Below, in pieces: positions 10,554 to 21,390 of a DNA stretch of 27,838 bases; position 1 is the first letter of the stretch, and each line of letters begins with the position of its first letter. A program made the position numbers and the translations under genes. The DNA is from an uncultured Bacteroides sp. Its GTDB lineage: Bacteria; Bacteroidota; Bacteroidia; Bacteroidales; Bacteroidaceae. Under the pieces are notes generated by a model. The model was not told where the DNA came from. It was given only the letters and a program-made list of their open reading frames with translations, and made no database searches. The stretch is taken from contig USEY01000051.1 in assembly GCA_900553815.1 (NCBI GenBank), positions 1 to 27,838 of the forward strand, in the 5' to 3' direction.

Positions 10554-10584
10554 TTCACCACAGAGGACACGGAGTCCCACAGAG
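10554..10584 (+). repeat. Left inverted arm of GxxExxY cassette 1
   Basis: Begins TTCACCACAGAGGACACGG and repeats the CACAGAG/ACACGGAG motif. It pairs with 10983-11013 as an inverted repeat with 5 mismatches in 31. It ends 2 bp from the start codon of the FAD protein gene. Confidence 0.85.
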
Positions 10585-10592
10585 TTTTAAGT

Positions 10593-10967
10593 TTATAAGA
10601 TATATCGTTTAATTCCTTCTTTTAAGCTCTTTACGTTGAAGTTTATCAACAAGCCATAACGCTTATGTGACAATTTCATATAAGTCAGTATTTGAGCAGT
10701 ATGTATAGGAGACAAGGCTTCAACCGCCTTCAACTCAATAATCACCGTATCATTTACCAAAATATCCAATCTATATCCTGCATCCATTCGTATAGTTTTA
10801 TAGACAACCGGCAAGGCCTTTTGCCTTTCTACCTTTAACCCACATTCAGTCAATTCAAAACACAAACACTCCTCATAAGCACTTTCTAAAAGTCCGGGGC
10901 CTAATACCGAATGTACCTCGTATGCCTTTTTTAAAATCAATCCTGTTAATTCATTAACCGTATCCAT
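10593..10967 (-). CDS. GxxExxY family protein (PD-(D/E)XK nuclease fold), copy 1
   Basis: A 124-residue small protein. The name-giving motif is G-L-L-E-S-A-Y (Gly25, Glu28, Tyr31). The nuclease-like core follows: RLDILV (Asp68), IIELK (Glu78, Lys80), then a Gln in TAQILTYMK (Gln92) and LLINF. This pattern is that of PD-(D/E)XK proteins. The biological function of the family is not established to my knowledge. I chose the ATG at 10967; a GTG directly upstream at 10970 could also start the frame. The gene lies between inverted CACAGAG arms, which suggests that the protein and the arms belong together. It shares the motif with the copy at 20266-20652 but is otherwise quite different, so the two are not a recent duplication. 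Confidence 0.88.
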
Positions 10968-10982
10968 CACATTTACCTATTC

Positions 10983-11013
10983 CTCTGTGAAACTCTGTGT
11001 ACTCTGTGGTGAG
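10983..11013 (-). repeat. Right inverted arm of GxxExxY cassette 1
   Basis: Read on the minus strand it begins CTCACCACAGAGTACACAG and mirrors 10554-10584. It starts 1 bp after the radA stop codon and ends 15 bp before the GxxExxY start codon. Confidence 0.85.
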
Positions 11014-11014
11014 C

Positions 11015-12382
11015 TCAGCCAAATAAAGTTCTGAATGCTTCTTCCACTTTCCTTACCGGAACCAGTTCGATGTTCAGTTTCTTCGTATTCAGCCCCTGCA
11101 GGTTGTACTTGGGCAGGAGGAACTGTTTGAAGCCAAGTTTCTCGGCCTCGCCAATGCGTTGCTCAATGCGGTTCACGGGGCGGATTTCACCAGAGAGGCC
11201 TATCTCGCCTGCCATGCAGACGCCCGCTTCAATCTCTGCATCCATGTTGCTGGACAGGATGGCACTGATGACAGCCAGGTCGATGGCCGGGTCGTTCACC
11301 TTCAAGCCACCAGCAATGTTGAGGAACACATCTTTCTGAGCCAGCTTGAAACCTACACGCTTTTCGAGCACTGCCAGCAACATGTTCATGCGACGGATGT
11401 CGAAACCAGTGGCCGAACGCTGCGGATTGCCATAGACGGCAGAGCTGACCAGTGCCTGCGTCTCAATGAGAAACGGACGCACGCCTTCGATGGCCGAAGC
11501 AATGGCCACGCCGCTCATGCCTTCGTGGTCCTGACTTAGGAGCAGTTCGGACGGATTGCTCACCTGTCGCAGGCCATCCTGGCGCATTTCGTAAATGCCC
11601 AGCTCGGCCGTGCTGCCAAAGCGGTTCTTGATGCTGCGCAAGATGCGGTACATATAGTGCTGGTCGCCTTCGAACTGAAGCACCGTGTCAACAATGTGTT
11701 CCAGTACCTTGGGACCGGCAATGCTTCCTTCCTTATTGATATGTCCGATAAGGATGACAGCCGTATGCGTCTCCTTGGCAAAGCGGAGGATGCTGGCTGC
11801 ACACTCGCGCACTTGGGCGATGCTGCCGGGCGAAGACTCCAGTGTCTCGGTAGAAATGGTCTGAATGGAATCGATGATGACCAGGTCGGGATGGGTATTC
11901 TTGATATGCACAAAGATTTGTTCGAGCAATGTCTCGCACACAATAAGGCAGTCGGACGAATGATGTACCAGGCGGTCGGCACGCAACTTCAGCTGGCGTG
12001 CGCTCTCCTCACCCGAAACGTAAAGGACACGACGCCCGTCCATGCGAAGCACCGTCTGCAACACCAGCGTTGATTTGCCTATACCCGGCTCACCGCCTAT
12101 AAGCACCAGCGAGCCTTGTACCAGTCCGCCACCCAGCACGCGGTTCAACTCGGCATCGTGCATGTCGATACGCGGCTCGTCGGCAGCCTCAATCTGGTCC
12201 AGCGTCACAGGCTTGGACTTAACCGTCTCAATGCCCGATACGGGCCGTCGGGCAGGCGACTCCTTGCGCACTATTTCCTCGACAAATGTGTTCCATTGTC
12301 CGCATGCCGGACACTTGCCCTGCCACTTGGGCGATTCCTGCCCACAGTTGCTGCACACATAGACGCTCTTTTCCTTGGCCAT
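11015..12382 (-). CDS. radA: DNA repair protein RadA (Sms)
   Basis: A 455-residue RecA-like ATPase that promotes branch migration of recombination intermediates. The N-terminal zinc finger has Cys10, Cys13, Cys24 and Cys27 (CSNCG...CPACGQW). The Walker A motif is GGEPGIGKST (96-105) and the Walker B region is LVIIDSIQ (Asp171). The RadA-specific KNRFG motif is at 252-256. A C-terminal Lon-protease-like domain covers about 290-455. Length and all motifs are normal for the family. A -7 box (minus strand, 12412-12419) lies 30 bp upstream of the start. The stop codon abuts GxxExxY cassette 1, so downstream genes could be read from the same transcript. Confidence 0.97.
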   Translation of the reverse strand: MAKEKSVYVCSNCGQESPKWQGKCPACGQWNTFVEEIVRKESPARRPVSGIETVKSKPVTLDQIEAADEPRIDMHDAELNRVLGGGLVQGSLVLIGGEPGIGKSTLVLQTVLRMDGRRVLYVSGEESARQLKLRADRLVHHSSDCLIVCETLLEQIFVHIKNTHPDLVIIDSIQTISTETLESSPGSIAQVRECAASILRFAKETHTAVILIGHINKEGSIAGPKVLEHIVDTVLQFEGDQHYMYRILRSIKNRFGSTAELGIYEMRQDGLRQVSNPSELLLSQDHEGMSGVAIASAIEGVRPFLIETQALVSSAVYGNPQRSATGFDIRRMNMLLAVLEKRVGFKLAQKDVFLNIAGGLKVNDPAIDLAVISAILSSNMDAEIEAGVCMAGEIGLSGEIRPVNRIEQRIGEAEKLGFKQFLLPKYNLQGLNTKKLNIELVPVRKVEEAFRTLFG

Positions 12383-18417: not shown

Positions 18418-18645
18418 AAACACGCTTGTGTTTGACAAACTACACGTTGCTCCAGTTCCGACTACACGCTGCTCCAGTTCCGACTACACGCTGCTCCGGT
18501 TCCGGCTACACGCTGCTCCAGTTCCAACTACACGCTGCTCCAGTTCCGGCTACACGCTGCTCCAGTTCCGGCTACACGCTGCTCCGGTTCCAGCTACACG
18601 CTGCTCCAGTTCCAACTACACGCTGCTCCAGTTCCAGCTACACGC
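18418..18645. repeat. Tandem 22-bp array inside the leu operon (array 3)
   Basis: Nine complete units start at 18440 and every 22 bp to 18616, with a partial tenth at 18638 and a decayed unit at 18418. The unit is CTACACGCTGCTCC, then (A/G)GTTCC, then a variable dinucleotide (GA, GG, AA or AG). The spacing is exact throughout. The last partial unit contains the cimA stop codon (CTA on the plus strand is TAG on the minus), so the array starts at the end of the gene and fills most of the gap to the small membrane-protein gene. It is expected to be transcribed within the operon. Confidence 0.95.
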
Positions 18646-20206
18646 CGGTGTTTTGCAAAGAAGCCCCCAAAGGCTCTCCAAAGCCATCCTCGATGAGGTT
18701 CAGCATCTTCATTGTAGCCTTGATGGCAGCTTCCGTCTGGTCGGCATCGAGGCCGCGGGTACGAAACACCTTGTCATCGAAGCTCCACGTGATGACTGTC
18801 TGCACAAAAGCATCCGTGCGACCGCCGGGCGGAATGCTCACAGCATAGTTGGTCAGCATGGGGAAGCGTCGGCCCAGCGTGCCCTTGTACACTTTGCGCA
18901 AGGCGCGGACAAAGGCATCGTACTGACCGTCGCCACTGCTGTTTTCCTCGTACTCCTTGCCATTGATTTCCACCTTGATGGTAGCCATCGGCTTCAGGCC
19001 ATAGGCCAGGTTGACGATATAGCTCTTCAACTTGACACGCTCGGTACGGACATCGTGCTTCAGCACGTCGGAAACGATGTAGGGCAGGTCTTCCTGTGTG
19101 ACAAGTTCCTTTTTGTCGCCCAGCTCGATGATGCGCTCGGTCACCTTGCGCATCGACTCGTCGTCCAGCTGCAGCCCCAGGTCTTCCAGGTTCTTGCGGA
19201 TGTTGGCCTTGCCCGAGTTCTTGCCCAAGGCATATTCACGCCGGCGGCCGAAGCGTTCGGGCAGCAGGTCGTTGTAGTAAAGGTTGCGCTTGTTGTCACC
19301 GTCGGCATGAACGCCGGCCACCTGCGTGAAGACATTCTCGCCCACGATGGGCTTGTTGGCCGGAATGGCTATGCCCGAATAAGACTCCACCACGCGGCTC
19401 ACCTCGTTCAACCGGCTTTCGTCTATATGCGTCAGGGCATTGAAATGGTCTTTCAGGATGGCCTGCACACTGGCCAACGGGGCATTTCCGGCGCGTTCGC
19501 CCAGTCCGTTGATGGTGGTATGCAAACCACGGCAACCGCTCAAGACGGCGGCCAGCACATTGGAGACGGCCAGGTCATAATCATTGTGGGCATGAAAATC
19601 GAAATGGGTATCGGGATAGCGCTTCTTCATTTTGCGCATAAACTCAATAACTTGCAGAGGATTGAGAATGCCCAGCGTATCGGGCAACATGAAGCGGCGG
19701 ATGCCGGTGCCGCAGAGTGCATCCATCAATTGGAACACATACTCGGGCGAATCCTTCATGCCGTTGCTCCAGTCTTCCAGATAGACATTGACCTCCATGT
19801 CAAGCCCTTCGGCATAATCTACCACGGCCTTGATGTCGGCAATGTGCTCCTCAGGCATTTTCTTCAGCTGGTAGGTGCAGTGCTTCAGCGAGCCCTTGCA
19901 CAGCAGGTTGATGACACGGCAGCCAGTGGAATGTATCCAGTCCACCGACGCATGTCCGTCCACAAATCCCAGCACCTCCACGCGCTGCAACAATCCGCGG
20001 CGGGCAGCCCAGTCGCATATCATGCGCACGGCATCAGCCTCGCCATCGGACACGCGGGCCGAAGCCACCTCCACACGGTCTACCTTCAGCTCTTCGAGCA
20101 GCAGACGGGCAATCATCAGCTTCTCGTGGGGCACGAAGGACACGCCGCTGGTCTGTTCACCATCGCGCAGGGTGGTGTCCATGATTTCTATTTTGGGTTG
20201 GTTCAT
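18638..20206 (-). CDS. cimA: (R)-citramalate synthase, Leptospira type
   Basis: A 522-residue acyltransferase, expected to condense pyruvate with acetyl-CoA to citramalate, the first step of threonine-independent isoleucine synthesis. It opens with [16 protein letters not shown]. Metal-binding HAHND is at 205-209 (His205, His207), GLGERAGN and GVHADGDNKRN follow, and a C-terminal LeuA-type regulatory domain covers about 385-515. From memory of the Leptospira interrogans enzyme, the pyruvate-pocket residues Arg16, Leu81, Leu104 and Tyr144 correspond to Arg14, Leu79, Leu102 and Tyr142 with a constant offset of 2. This argues against a second isopropylmalate synthase, the label it would usually receive. 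It lies in the leu operon, whose LeuCD and LeuB can serve both pathways. Confidence 0.85.
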   Translation of the reverse strand: MNQPKIEIMDTTLRDGEQTSGVSFVPHEKLMIARLLLEELKVDRVEVASARVSDGEADAVRMICDWAARRGLLQRVEVLGFVDGHASVDWIHSTGCRVINLLCKGSLKHCTYQLKKMPEEHIADIKAVVDYAEGLDMEVNVYLEDWSNGMKDSPEYVFQLMDALCGTGIRRFMLPDTLGILNPLQVIEFMRKMKKRYPDTHFDFHAHNDYDLAVSNVLAAVLSGCRGLHTTINGLGERAGNAPLASVQAILKDHFNALTHIDESRLNEVSRVVESYSGIAIPANKPIVGENVFTQVAGVHADGDNKRNLYYNDLLPERFGRRREYALGKNSGKANIRKNLEDLGLQLDDESMRKVTERIIELGDKKELVTQEDLPYIVSDVLKHDVRTERVKLKSYIVNLAYGLKPMATIKVEINGKEYEENSSGDGQYDAFVRALRKVYKGTLGRRFPMLTNYAVSIPPGGRTDAFVQTVITWSFDDKVFRTRGLDADQTEAAIKATMKMLNLIEDGFGEPLGASLQNTGV

Positions 20207-20220
20207 AGTTCGTTATTATT

Positions 20221-20260
20221 ATGGCACACAGATGACACAGATTTTACAAGATGACCACAG
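20221..20260 (+). repeat. Left inverted arm of GxxExxY cassette 2
   Basis: Begins ATGGCACACAGATGACACAG and continues ATTTTACAAGATG. It ends 5 bp before the GxxExxY stop codon and its outer end lies 14 bp from the cimA start. Its outer 22 bp are identical to the right end of the gene-less element at 21369-21390, inverted. Confidence 0.9.
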
Positions 20261-20265
20261 AAGAA

Positions 20266-20652
20266 TTATTTCCGGTCGTTCGTATAAATTTTACGACGAA
20301 TTTGCGGACGTTCACCAAAGTTCAGCAGCAGCCCAACTTCCATATCTGTAGCCTTAAGATAATTAATCAACTGCAACTCATGTTCCTTACACAATGTATC
20401 AACCGCTTTCAGCTCTAAAATAATACATTCATTTACAAGAACATCTGCATAATATTCGCCCACTTCCTGACCCTTAAAAAACACCTTGATTGGATATTGA
20501 GCCTTGCAATCGAAACCTCGCCGCTTCAATTCCTGATAAAGCGCATTCTGATATACCCGCTCCAAGAATCCGTAACCCAACGTATTGTACACCTCATAAA
20601 AGGCTTCAATTATTTCGTCAGTTTCTTCCTTATACAAGAAATCTGTGTCCAT
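20266..20652 (-). CDS. GxxExxY family protein (PD-(D/E)XK nuclease fold), copy 2
   Basis: A 128-residue protein. The motif is G-F-L-E-R-V-Y (Gly28, Glu31, Tyr34). Core residues are Asp70 in YYADVLV, Glu80 and Lys82 in IILELKAV, and Gln94 in HELQLINYLK, followed by GLLLNFG. This is the PD-(D/E)XK pattern. The role of the family is unknown to me. The start ATG is the inner end of the right inverted arm, so the arm provides the ribosome-binding region (ACAAG-ATG). It sits 15 bp after the leuD stop and 59 bp before the cimA start. It has no clear link with leucine synthesis and looks like a passenger in the operon. Confidence 0.9.
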   Translation of the reverse strand: MDTDFLYKEETDEIIEAFYEVYNTLGYGFLERVYQNALYQELKRRGFDCKAQYPIKVFFKGQEVGEYYADVLVNECIILELKAVDTLCKEHELQLINYLKATDMEVGLLLNFGERPQIRRKIYTNDRK

Positions 20653-20682
20653 CTTGTAAAATCTGTGTTATCTGTGTGCCAT
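20643..20682 (-). repeat. Right inverted arm of GxxExxY cassette 2
   Basis: Read on the minus strand it begins ATGGCACACAGATAACACAG and mirrors 20221-20260 with three mismatches. Its first 15 bases encode Met-Ala-His-Arg-stop, the end of LeuD. Further in it contains the GxxExxY start codon. Confidence 0.9.
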
Positions 20683-21267
20683 CAATTCATACTTTTCTAT
20701 CTTGTCTTTGTTCTCCACCAGAAAATCAATGTCGTCCAGTCCGTTCATCAGACAATGCTTCTTGTAAGCGTTGATTTCAAAGGTTTCGCTGCGGCCCGTG
20801 GCCTTGTTGGTCACAGTCTGTGCGGGCAAGTTCACCTCCACTTCTGTCTTGGGGTCGGCAGCAATGCTGTCAAAGAGTTCTTGCAGGAAAGCTTCGCTTA
20901 CCACTACCGGCAACACGAAGTTGTTCAGTTCATTGTTCTTGTGAATATCGGCAAAGAAGCTGGAGATGACCACGCGGAAGCCATATCCGGCAATGGCCCA
21001 GGCTGCGTGCTCGCGGCTGCTGCCCGAACCGAAGTTCTTGCCGGCCACAAGGATGCAGCCACTATAAGTCGGATTGTTCAGCACAAAGTCCTTGTTCAAT
21101 GTTCCGTCGGCATTGTAGCGCCAGTCGCGGAACAGGTTGTCGCCAAAGAACTTCTCCTCACGGGTAGTAGCCTTGAGGAAGCGTGCGGGAATAATCTGGT
21201 CAGTATCTACATTCTCCAACGGAAGGGGAACACAGGTAGAAGTTATGATGTTGAATTTCTGTTTCAT
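20668..21267 (-). CDS. leuD: 3-isopropylmalate dehydratase small subunit
   Basis: A 199-residue swivel-domain subunit that pairs with LeuC to isomerise isopropylmalate, and citramalate if CimA is active. It carries NVDTDQIIPARFLK (about 19-32) and the active-site segment GKNFGSGSSREHAAWAI, typical of LeuD. Length is normal. The last four residues, Met-Ala-His-Arg, and the stop codon come from the right arm of GxxExxY cassette 2, so the original C-terminus seems to have been replaced or capped. A gene-less relative of the arms lies upstream, between leuC and leuD. Confidence 0.96.
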   Translation of the reverse strand: MKQKFNIITSTCVPLPLENVDTDQIIPARFLKATTREEKFFGDNLFRDWRYNADGTLNKDFVLNNPTYSGCILVAGKNFGSGSSREHAAWAIAGYGFRVVISSFFADIHKNNELNNFVLPVVVSEAFLQELFDSIAADPKTEVEVNLPAQTVTNKATGRSETFEINAYKKHCLMNGLDDIDFLVENKDKIEKYELMAHR

Positions 21268-21296: not shown

Positions 21297-21390
21297 GCAC
21301 ACAGACAACACACAGGATACGGATAACCACAGATTGAGGAAAAAAGAAAGATCTGTGAGCTCTGTCGTATCTGTGTCATCTGTGTGCCAT
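21297..21390. mobile_element. Gene-less inverted-repeat element between leuC and leuD
   Basis: A 94-bp imperfect palindrome. The left arm 21297-21334 and right arm 21351-21390 both carry ACACAGAT/CACAGAG motifs about 10 bp apart and face each other across a 16-bp purine-rich centre. The outer 22 bp of the right arm are identical to the outer left arm of GxxExxY cassette 2. It has no room for a gene. It may be a deletion derivative, a non-autonomous relative, or an empty site of the same system. It lies 7 bp after the leuC stop codon and would form a strong hairpin in the operon mRNA. Confidence 0.65.

Follow-up and report, generated by a model that had tools for sequence, protein, structure and literature searches.

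GxxExxY nuclease-fold genes between inverted repeat arms suggest an undescribed nuclease-linked repeat system in Bacteroidota

Genes encoding GxxExxY proteins were found inside inverted arms built of short repeated units, and gene-free copies of such arms were scattered in related gene-bearing genomes, which together suggest an undescribed nuclease-linked repeat system. The window, that is, the whole stretch of 27,838 nucleotides analyzed here from an uncultured Bacteroides sp. (contig USEY01000051.1), contains two such elements, A and B, and one gene-free hairpin (Table 1). Judging from sequence comparisons, the GxxExxY gene and its mirrored arms probably constitute a single selfish or self-maintaining system that resembles the REPIN/RAYT pairs and operates with an unrelated nuclease.

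Table 1. Positions of the arms, GxxExxY genes, hairpin and host genes in the window
Feature	Position	Strand	Basis or remark
Left arm, element A (past the 3′ end of the gene)	20221..20261	+	CACAGAT units, the full pair starting 9 bp apart
GxxExxY gene A, 128 aa, PD-(D/E)XK fold	20266..20652	-	Profile matches, active site, model
Right arm, element A	20642..20682	-	Includes gene A start codon and the 3′ end of leuD (four codons plus stop)
Host gene leuD, upstream of element A	20668..21267	-	Name from sequence and operon place
Host leuA-like gene, downstream of element A	18638..20206	-	Name from sequence and operon place
Left arm, element B, CACAGAG type	10555..10584	+	Inverted-arm alignment
GxxExxY gene B, 125 aa	10593..10970	-	Reading frame and profile matches
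Right arm, element B, CACAGAG type	10983..11012	-	Inverted-arm alignment
Host gene radA, upstream of element B	11015..12382	-	Neighbor of the GxxExxY gene in locus L304 annotated radA
Gene-free hairpin, between leuC and leuD	21297..21387		Inverted arms

Results

Inverted-arm elements in the window

The two arms of element A are 41 nt long and 93% complementary, and their local alignment score (35) was well above the best value (20) obtained in 2000 first-order Markov resamplings of both stretches. A first-pass annotation of the window had described arms pairing at 37 of 40 positions (20221..20682); the inverted arms are real, and the count is now 38 of 41. That annotation was also right in assigning the start codon of the gene to an arm, as the ATG of gene A (20650-20652) lies within the right arm, and in placing the CACAGAT units at helical spacing, with two full units per arm starting 9 bp apart. 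The same right arm encodes the C-terminal residues MAHR of LeuD and the stop codon. No Rfam match at gathering score was obtained in the whole window.

Element B (10555-11012) and the gene-free hairpin were absent from the first-pass annotation. The other neighbor of gene B corresponds to a gene annotated as FAD-dependent protein in L304. The right arm of the hairpin, read outward and including the flank up to position 21390, has the sequence ATGGCACACAGATGACACAGAT in common with element A. By eye, among 40 leuD-leuA rows, the full hairpin was present in the window and in loci L001, L006, and L009, with traces in L002, L003, and L060. When the hairpin arms were compared with the arms of GxxExxY genes, those of the same genome gave the best average score in one of four genomes (L006) and the best single score in none of the four. 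As a separate observation, a second dispersed inverted repeat (GTCATCCTGAGCG type) occupies the loop of CACAGAT/CGCAGAT-type hairpins, or of their traces, at L060, L002, and L003 (leuC-leuD gap) and at L194, L195, and L208.

Predicted nuclease fold of the GxxExxY protein

The products of the two genes belong to the GxxExxY family, with TIGR04256 matches of 138.5 bits (gene A) and 152.6 bits against a cut-off of 35. They also matched PF13366 (PDDEXK_3) with 145.6 (gene A) and 144.9 bits against a cut-off of 22, this being the sole Pfam profile above its own cut-off (DUF6022, E 0.21, was below its own). Among 120 sequences, the conservation of the active site was 1.0 for D, 1.0 for K, and 0.99 for E. 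The RecB/Cas4-like nuclease superfamily is characterized by the residues E, D, ExK, and QxxxY, and all of them are present in GxxExxY. The search for sequence relatives in the PDB yielded none (best E 0.22), and the best fold match of the nuclease-type model was the DNA nuclease 4ic1 (SSO0001), which paper titles call a Cas4; RNA-splicing endonucleases also appeared among the fold matches at lower rank. These data support the PD-(D/E)XK assignment made in the first-pass annotation, through the PDDEXK_3 match and the near-invariant catalytic residues, and they indicate that GxxExxY is, by predicted fold and active site, a Cas4/RecB-like nuclease. Cas4 proteins, as described in abstracts, hold an Fe-S cluster with conserved cysteines; in contrast, among 54 GxxExxY sequences no cysteine was found at invariant columns or at those conserved to 90%, so that the signature of such a cluster is absent, and no cas gene was noticed in a casual reading of the frames of the window.

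Among 148 Bacteroidota genomes drawn, 73 contained GxxExxY matches over the cut-off, with up to 12 copies per genome. The open-access literature searched gave no role for the protein; it is named in two of the papers found, a single time in either, by PMC12085832 in a gene table and by PMC8934634 as a gene adjoining a reverse transcriptase. No description of the arms was found either, in a search confined to open PMC papers and therefore weak as evidence of absence.

Arms around GxxExxY genes across Bacteroidota

The flanks of the first 15 GxxExxY loci were all judged by eye to be inverted and repeat-built, and they included the unit variants CGCAGAT, CACGGAT, and ACTGATTA. The survey was then based on 90 places taken from among the best-scoring ones (30 search loci and 60 fetched), 88 of them with full flanks; since these are the best family scores, divergent members are under-sampled. 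The arm score was obtained by aligning the left flank to the reversed right flank. The border was set by the profile match, because reading frames frequently extend into the right arm. The median score was 19 in the 88 loci vs 10 for flanks taken from different loci and 9 for 45 far-flank control pairs, whose maximum was 12. Inverted flanks scored above every one of these far controls in 76 of the 88 loci (71 when the right border was placed at the stop codon), whereas the remaining 12 had no arms detectable by score. At least two units on each side were found in 47/88 loci vs 0/45 far controls, the unit consensus being CRCNRAK and the spacing 8-11 bp with a peak at 9-10 (stop-based border). 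The first-pass annotation had proposed looking for inverted arms at the flanks of GxxExxY genes in other genomes, and they are present there above background.

The arms were specific to this family in a comparison of 14 chosen genomes from which contig-end loci were left out: at least two CRCNRAK units on both sides were found in 22 of 29 GxxExxY loci vs 0 of 26 Y1_Tnp (Y1/RAYT) and 0 of 28 TIGR02436 (S23p) loci. It was also observed that a polysaccharide-type gene island (L166, G195:C1:1585000-1600000) has CRCNRAK arms in most intergenic gaps and includes one GxxExxY gene and one four-helix-bundle gene.

Co-variation of arm type and protein

A FastTree tree was built with the 89 proteins, out of 120, whose loci had typeable arms; typing relied on the stop codon to position the right flank, a border that had proved inadequate in the survey. 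The G or T at the end of the unit changed 6 times on this tree, vs a mean of 26.9 and a minimum of 19 in 1000 shuffles, the observed count being lowered by the leu- and radA-site orthologs included among the 89. When this character was shuffled within genomes only (9 mixed genomes, 21 loci), 6 or fewer changes were obtained in 5 of 1000 shuffles. Similarly, the CAC/CGC character changed 15 times (shuffle mean 27.4, minimum 20), and as few changes as observed were found in 1 of 1000 within-genome shuffles (13 genomes, 30 loci). Co-variation was weak for the spacing class (8 vs at least 9), with 6 changes (shuffle mean 9.6, minimum 6) and 63 of 1000 within genomes. The left and right arm types of a given element were correlated (r 0.88 and 0.87, n=89), and in ten leu elements the two arms of one element scored 32.1 against each other, compared with 24.1 and 24.8 for the same arm across species. 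Altogether, the arm type tracks the protein tree, paralogs of a single genome included.

Gene-free hairpins and copy number

A three-unit arm pattern was counted in the same 148 Bacteroidota genomes, matches beside genes included. The 73 genomes with the gene had a mean of 24.9 and a median of 8 matches, vs 1.3 and 1 in the 75 without it, and at least 10 matches were found in 31/73 and 1/75 genomes, respectively. Reversed-pattern controls gave 1.4 and 0.28. The Spearman correlation was 0.65 for the pattern and 0.20 for the control; the relatedness of the genomes, the gene-adjacent matches and this weakly correlating control make p-values for such counts too small, so they serve as a guide only. 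Genome G035 had 40 arm matches and no GxxExxY match, and the five hairpins inspected in it were all intergenic.

The clearest test was a search of 158 genomes of the genus for the 25-base arm found at the second gene of G001 (L190), with at most one mismatch. A total of 488 matches were found in 43 of them, 324 of which were in G046 (120), G017 (111), G001 (55), and G003 (38); these four, the richest in this arm, are also the only genomes of the 158 with an ortholog at least 89% identical (92, 93, 100, and 89%, respectively). Taking the six genomes with an ortholog of at least 80%, the Mann-Whitney value was 4.7e-7. In one of these (G055, ortholog 86%), the variant TTACACGGAT was found in both arms of the ortholog and in 9 of the 11 matches, those two included; in another (G053, 80%), there was one match. 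Three genomes without a close ortholog also had matches (G004, 17; G247, 16; G303, 16). The G017/G046 group is rich in the CGCGGATTACGCGGATTTCACGGAT hairpin.

In 25 hairpins from fetched stretches of G001, G017, and G046, selected by the arm pattern with at most 4 changes in 27, the arms were 98.0% identical, a likeness due in part to that selection, and the loops 70% vs 58% after shuffling. The idea that the hairpin loops are unrelated to each other was thus wrong for the main family. By eye, several G001 hairpins with the arm sequence of the gene (L196, L198-L203, L205, and L206) were seen to lie within a larger inverted repeat, very roughly 190 bp in length.

Occupied and empty sites

The leuD-leuA site was studied in 46 loci, 6 of which were dropped for lacking both genes together, leaving 40 rows, 12 with the GxxExxY gene and 28 without it; the 12 rows represent ten genomes, two of them twice, and most were fetched because they carry the gene. 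In the genus draw (best 30 loci), the gene was absent in 28. In 26 of the 28 empty rows, leuD and leuA overlap or lie at most 31 bp apart; in the other two (L048 and L060) arms enclose other sequence. Genome G002, to which L048 belongs, has a further leuD copy (L002), and that one does have the gene. Apparent arm scraps were found at two empty leu sites (L046 and L051). At the radA site, 7 of the 30 best-matching relatives had the gene and 23 lacked it; the gap was at most 91 bp in 15 of these 23 loci and longer in 3, while in 5 the locus did not include the next gene. The gap was 7 bp in the closest gene-free relative (L270), and arm-like scraps were seen by eye at L271 and L297. The first-pass annotation had asked whether orthologous sites lack the whole unit cleanly: empty sites are frequent, and some of them retain apparent arm scraps. 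Neither of the two outcomes that it named as contrary, flanks without arms above background and occupation of this locus in all relatives, was observed.

Genomes G017 and G046 are 97-99% identical in the compared loci and have in common the hairpin L350:13244 and the gene element L340:3363. One hairpin of the 25-base-arm type was found in G017 only, at a site that differs throughout (141 vs 392 bases), so that it does not provide a clean empty site. No target-site duplication was seen, the flanks at leu and radA being too diverged to show one and the G017/G046 difference lying in unlike sequence. No near-identical GxxExxY paralogs were found (49 pairs, maximum 79%), so that there is no visible sign of copying of the gene itself. 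Two other differences between these genomes were observed. A hairpin built of GAGCTAC units occurs in G046 and is missing from G017, 95 bases replacing 29 at a site otherwise 97-98% identical (L311:1047-1143 vs L310:1113-1143). A AAGGACTG/AGTCCTTG repeat block is found in G046 only (L398:3664-3767 vs L355:8573-8580), with a short direct repeat at its borders by eye.

Orientation was scored against both neighbors in 78 loci, with neighbors taken as longest open frames rather than annotations: 57 genes were on the same strand as both, 4 on the opposite strand, and 17 were mixed (57/61, p 4.9e-13). The corresponding numbers were 23, 0, and 5 for TIGR02436 genes and 2, 1, and 10 for 13 Y1 loci. 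This bias suggests that the GxxExxY gene is transcribed from the promoter of the host operon, and it leaves room for a role at the RNA level.

Plasmids, phages and other phyla

GxxExxY genes were found in 8 of 72,556 plasmid records and in none of 50,697 phage records. Two viral loci were also identified, one with CACGGAT-type flanks (L308) and one with other sequence (L309). Clear inverted arms were present at three plasmid loci (L304, L305, and L306) and a short pair at L301; L302 had a neighboring hairpin only, and L300, L303, and L307 had no arms. In L304, radA adjoins the GxxExxY gene as in chromosomes, so this record is possibly a fragment of a chromosome. Four plasmid loci come from outside Bacteroidota (Sphingomonas, Treponema, Gemmatirosa, and Fusobacteria). 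In the plasmid of Sphingomonas parapaucimobilis (L306), a gene with CGCGAAG arms lies exactly between fabD and fabG; the Treponema locus has a short inverted pair, and that from Fusobacteria has no inverted arms. In the Gemmatirosa plasmid (L302), a CGCGGAT gene-free hairpin was observed just downstream of the GxxExxY gene, which itself is without clear arms.

Discussion

According to PMC8049555, REPINs are dispersed hairpins with two inverted arms and a diverse spacer, served by a dedicated protein gene that does not copy itself, and they are commoner in genomes with that gene. The GxxExxY hairpins are likewise dispersed, with two inverted arms and a diverse spacer, they are commoner where the gene is present (G035, G004, G247, and G303 being exceptions), and their gene shows no visible self-copying. 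The first-pass annotation had taken gene and arms as one unit following REP/RAYT logic, a proposal favored by the co-variation of arms and protein and by the gene-free copies, and against which stand the hairpins in genomes where the gene is absent (G035 and G303). The systems also differ in that GxxExxY is a predicted PD-(D/E)XK nuclease, whereas RAYTs are HuH Y1 transposases, a class to which it does not belong; in that its arms are runs of units 8-11 bp apart; and in the orientation of neighbors, which are predominantly on the same strand at GxxExxY loci (57 vs 4 of 78), whereas Y1 loci are mostly mixed (10 of 13 scored, the rest 2 vs 1).

A second known architecture is that of the S23p intervening sequences, which, according to PMC4990558, are elements of about 0.45 kb with one small gene and long inverted termini. 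Element A is similar in its size of ~0.45 kb, its single small gene and its long inverted termini. The chromosomal S23p genes studied here also have inverted flanks, with scores of at least 14 in 27/28 loci vs 0/28 far controls, and same-strand neighbors prevail in both families (23 vs 0 for S23p). On the other hand, the GxxExxY protein is unrelated to the four-helix S23p protein (TIGR02436), its arm sequence is other than that of S23p arms, and element A lies in the gap of a leuD/leuA-like operon rather than in 23S rRNA. The chromosomal S23p/IVP (four-helix-bundle) genes thus have the same architecture with a different protein. Among S23p/IVP loci L240-L269, short repeated units of other sequence were observed in several of the eight alignments inspected (L240, L244, L246, L254, L258, L261, L265, and L269).

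This resemblance bears on a reading, which we regard as unlikely, in which the element would be of the intervening-sequence kind and act in RNA: the arms would pair in the operon transcript, the stem would be cut by RNase III or a similar enzyme, the protein would act on or through RNA, and the arms would be kept for messenger folding. The strand bias in both families is in line with it, and so are the greater likeness between the two arms of one leu element (32.1) than between corresponding arms of different species (24.1 and 24.8) and the Coxiella intervening sequence, for which PMC4990558 gives a length of 428 nt, a terminal stem of 28 bp and an S23p gene. However, pairing alone would require neither that the unit type track the protein tree nor that arm sequence be kept while loops drift, in hairpins that were selected by their arms, and the fold is closest to a DNA nuclease, although RNA-splicing endonucleases are found among the lower matches.

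That the arms are host regulatory hairpins (terminators, attenuators or determinants of messenger stability) or operators for the gene product, the gene being immobile, vertically inherited and often lost, would agree with the sharing of elements at the same two sites by several species, with the intergenic position of the five G035 hairpins inspected and with the lack of any observed self-duplication of the gene. It is harder to reconcile with dozens of similar hairpins per genome, with the absence of the element from most relatives drawn, with its presence in unrelated operons, one of them in another phylum (fabD-fabG, Sphingomonas), and with near-invariant catalytic residues, and it also seems improbable. 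Much the least probable is that the arms are served by the enzyme of another mobile element, a RAYT or other transposase, with GxxExxY as cargo. Y1_Tnp proteins do occur in 12 of the 14 genomes searched, and G035 has hairpins without GxxExxY; but both G001 (106) and G035 (40) are rich in arm matches with no Y1_Tnp match, Y1 genes are flanked by other sequence with units on both sides in 0/26 loci, and it is the GxxExxY phylogeny that the arm type tracks.

Under the preferred reading of gene and arms as one self-maintaining system, the small Cas4/RecB-like nuclease would recognize arms made of CRCNRAK units about one helical turn apart, binding them specifically and nicking or cutting at the arm. 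The full copy of the element would be the carrier of the gene, and hairpins that have these arms but no gene would be non-autonomous copies, dependent on the protein in trans for their multiplication or maintenance as REPINs are on RAYT, with host repair possibly copying the hairpin into new intergenic sites. Specific recognition is suggested by the arm-protein co-variation together with the 25-base arm result, cutting by the active site alone, and hairpin spreading by the copy number and the empty sites.

We put forward a broader interpretation tentatively, with less than even confidence: hairpin mobile elements of an undescribed class, extending beyond Bacteroidota, would have GxxExxY as their enzyme and be driven by this Cas4/RecB-like nuclease instead of a transposase, and their multi-unit arm code would evolve together with the protein. 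Chromosomal S23p genes would then form a sister class, and the general architecture would have the rRNA intervening sequences as one of its landing places.

The family is common in the Bacteroidota genomes sampled (73/148), yet no role was given for it in the literature found. Linking it to a specific arm sequence supplies a predicted substrate, so that its function can be tested directly, and suitable material is provided by paralogs of one genome that differ in arm type and by genomes with more than 100 matches to one arm (G046 and G017). If the proposed system is real, it would account for the CACAGAT, CACAGAG, and CGCAAAG arrays observed, and it would represent a second, enzymatically unrelated route by which REP-like repeats persist in bacterial genomes.
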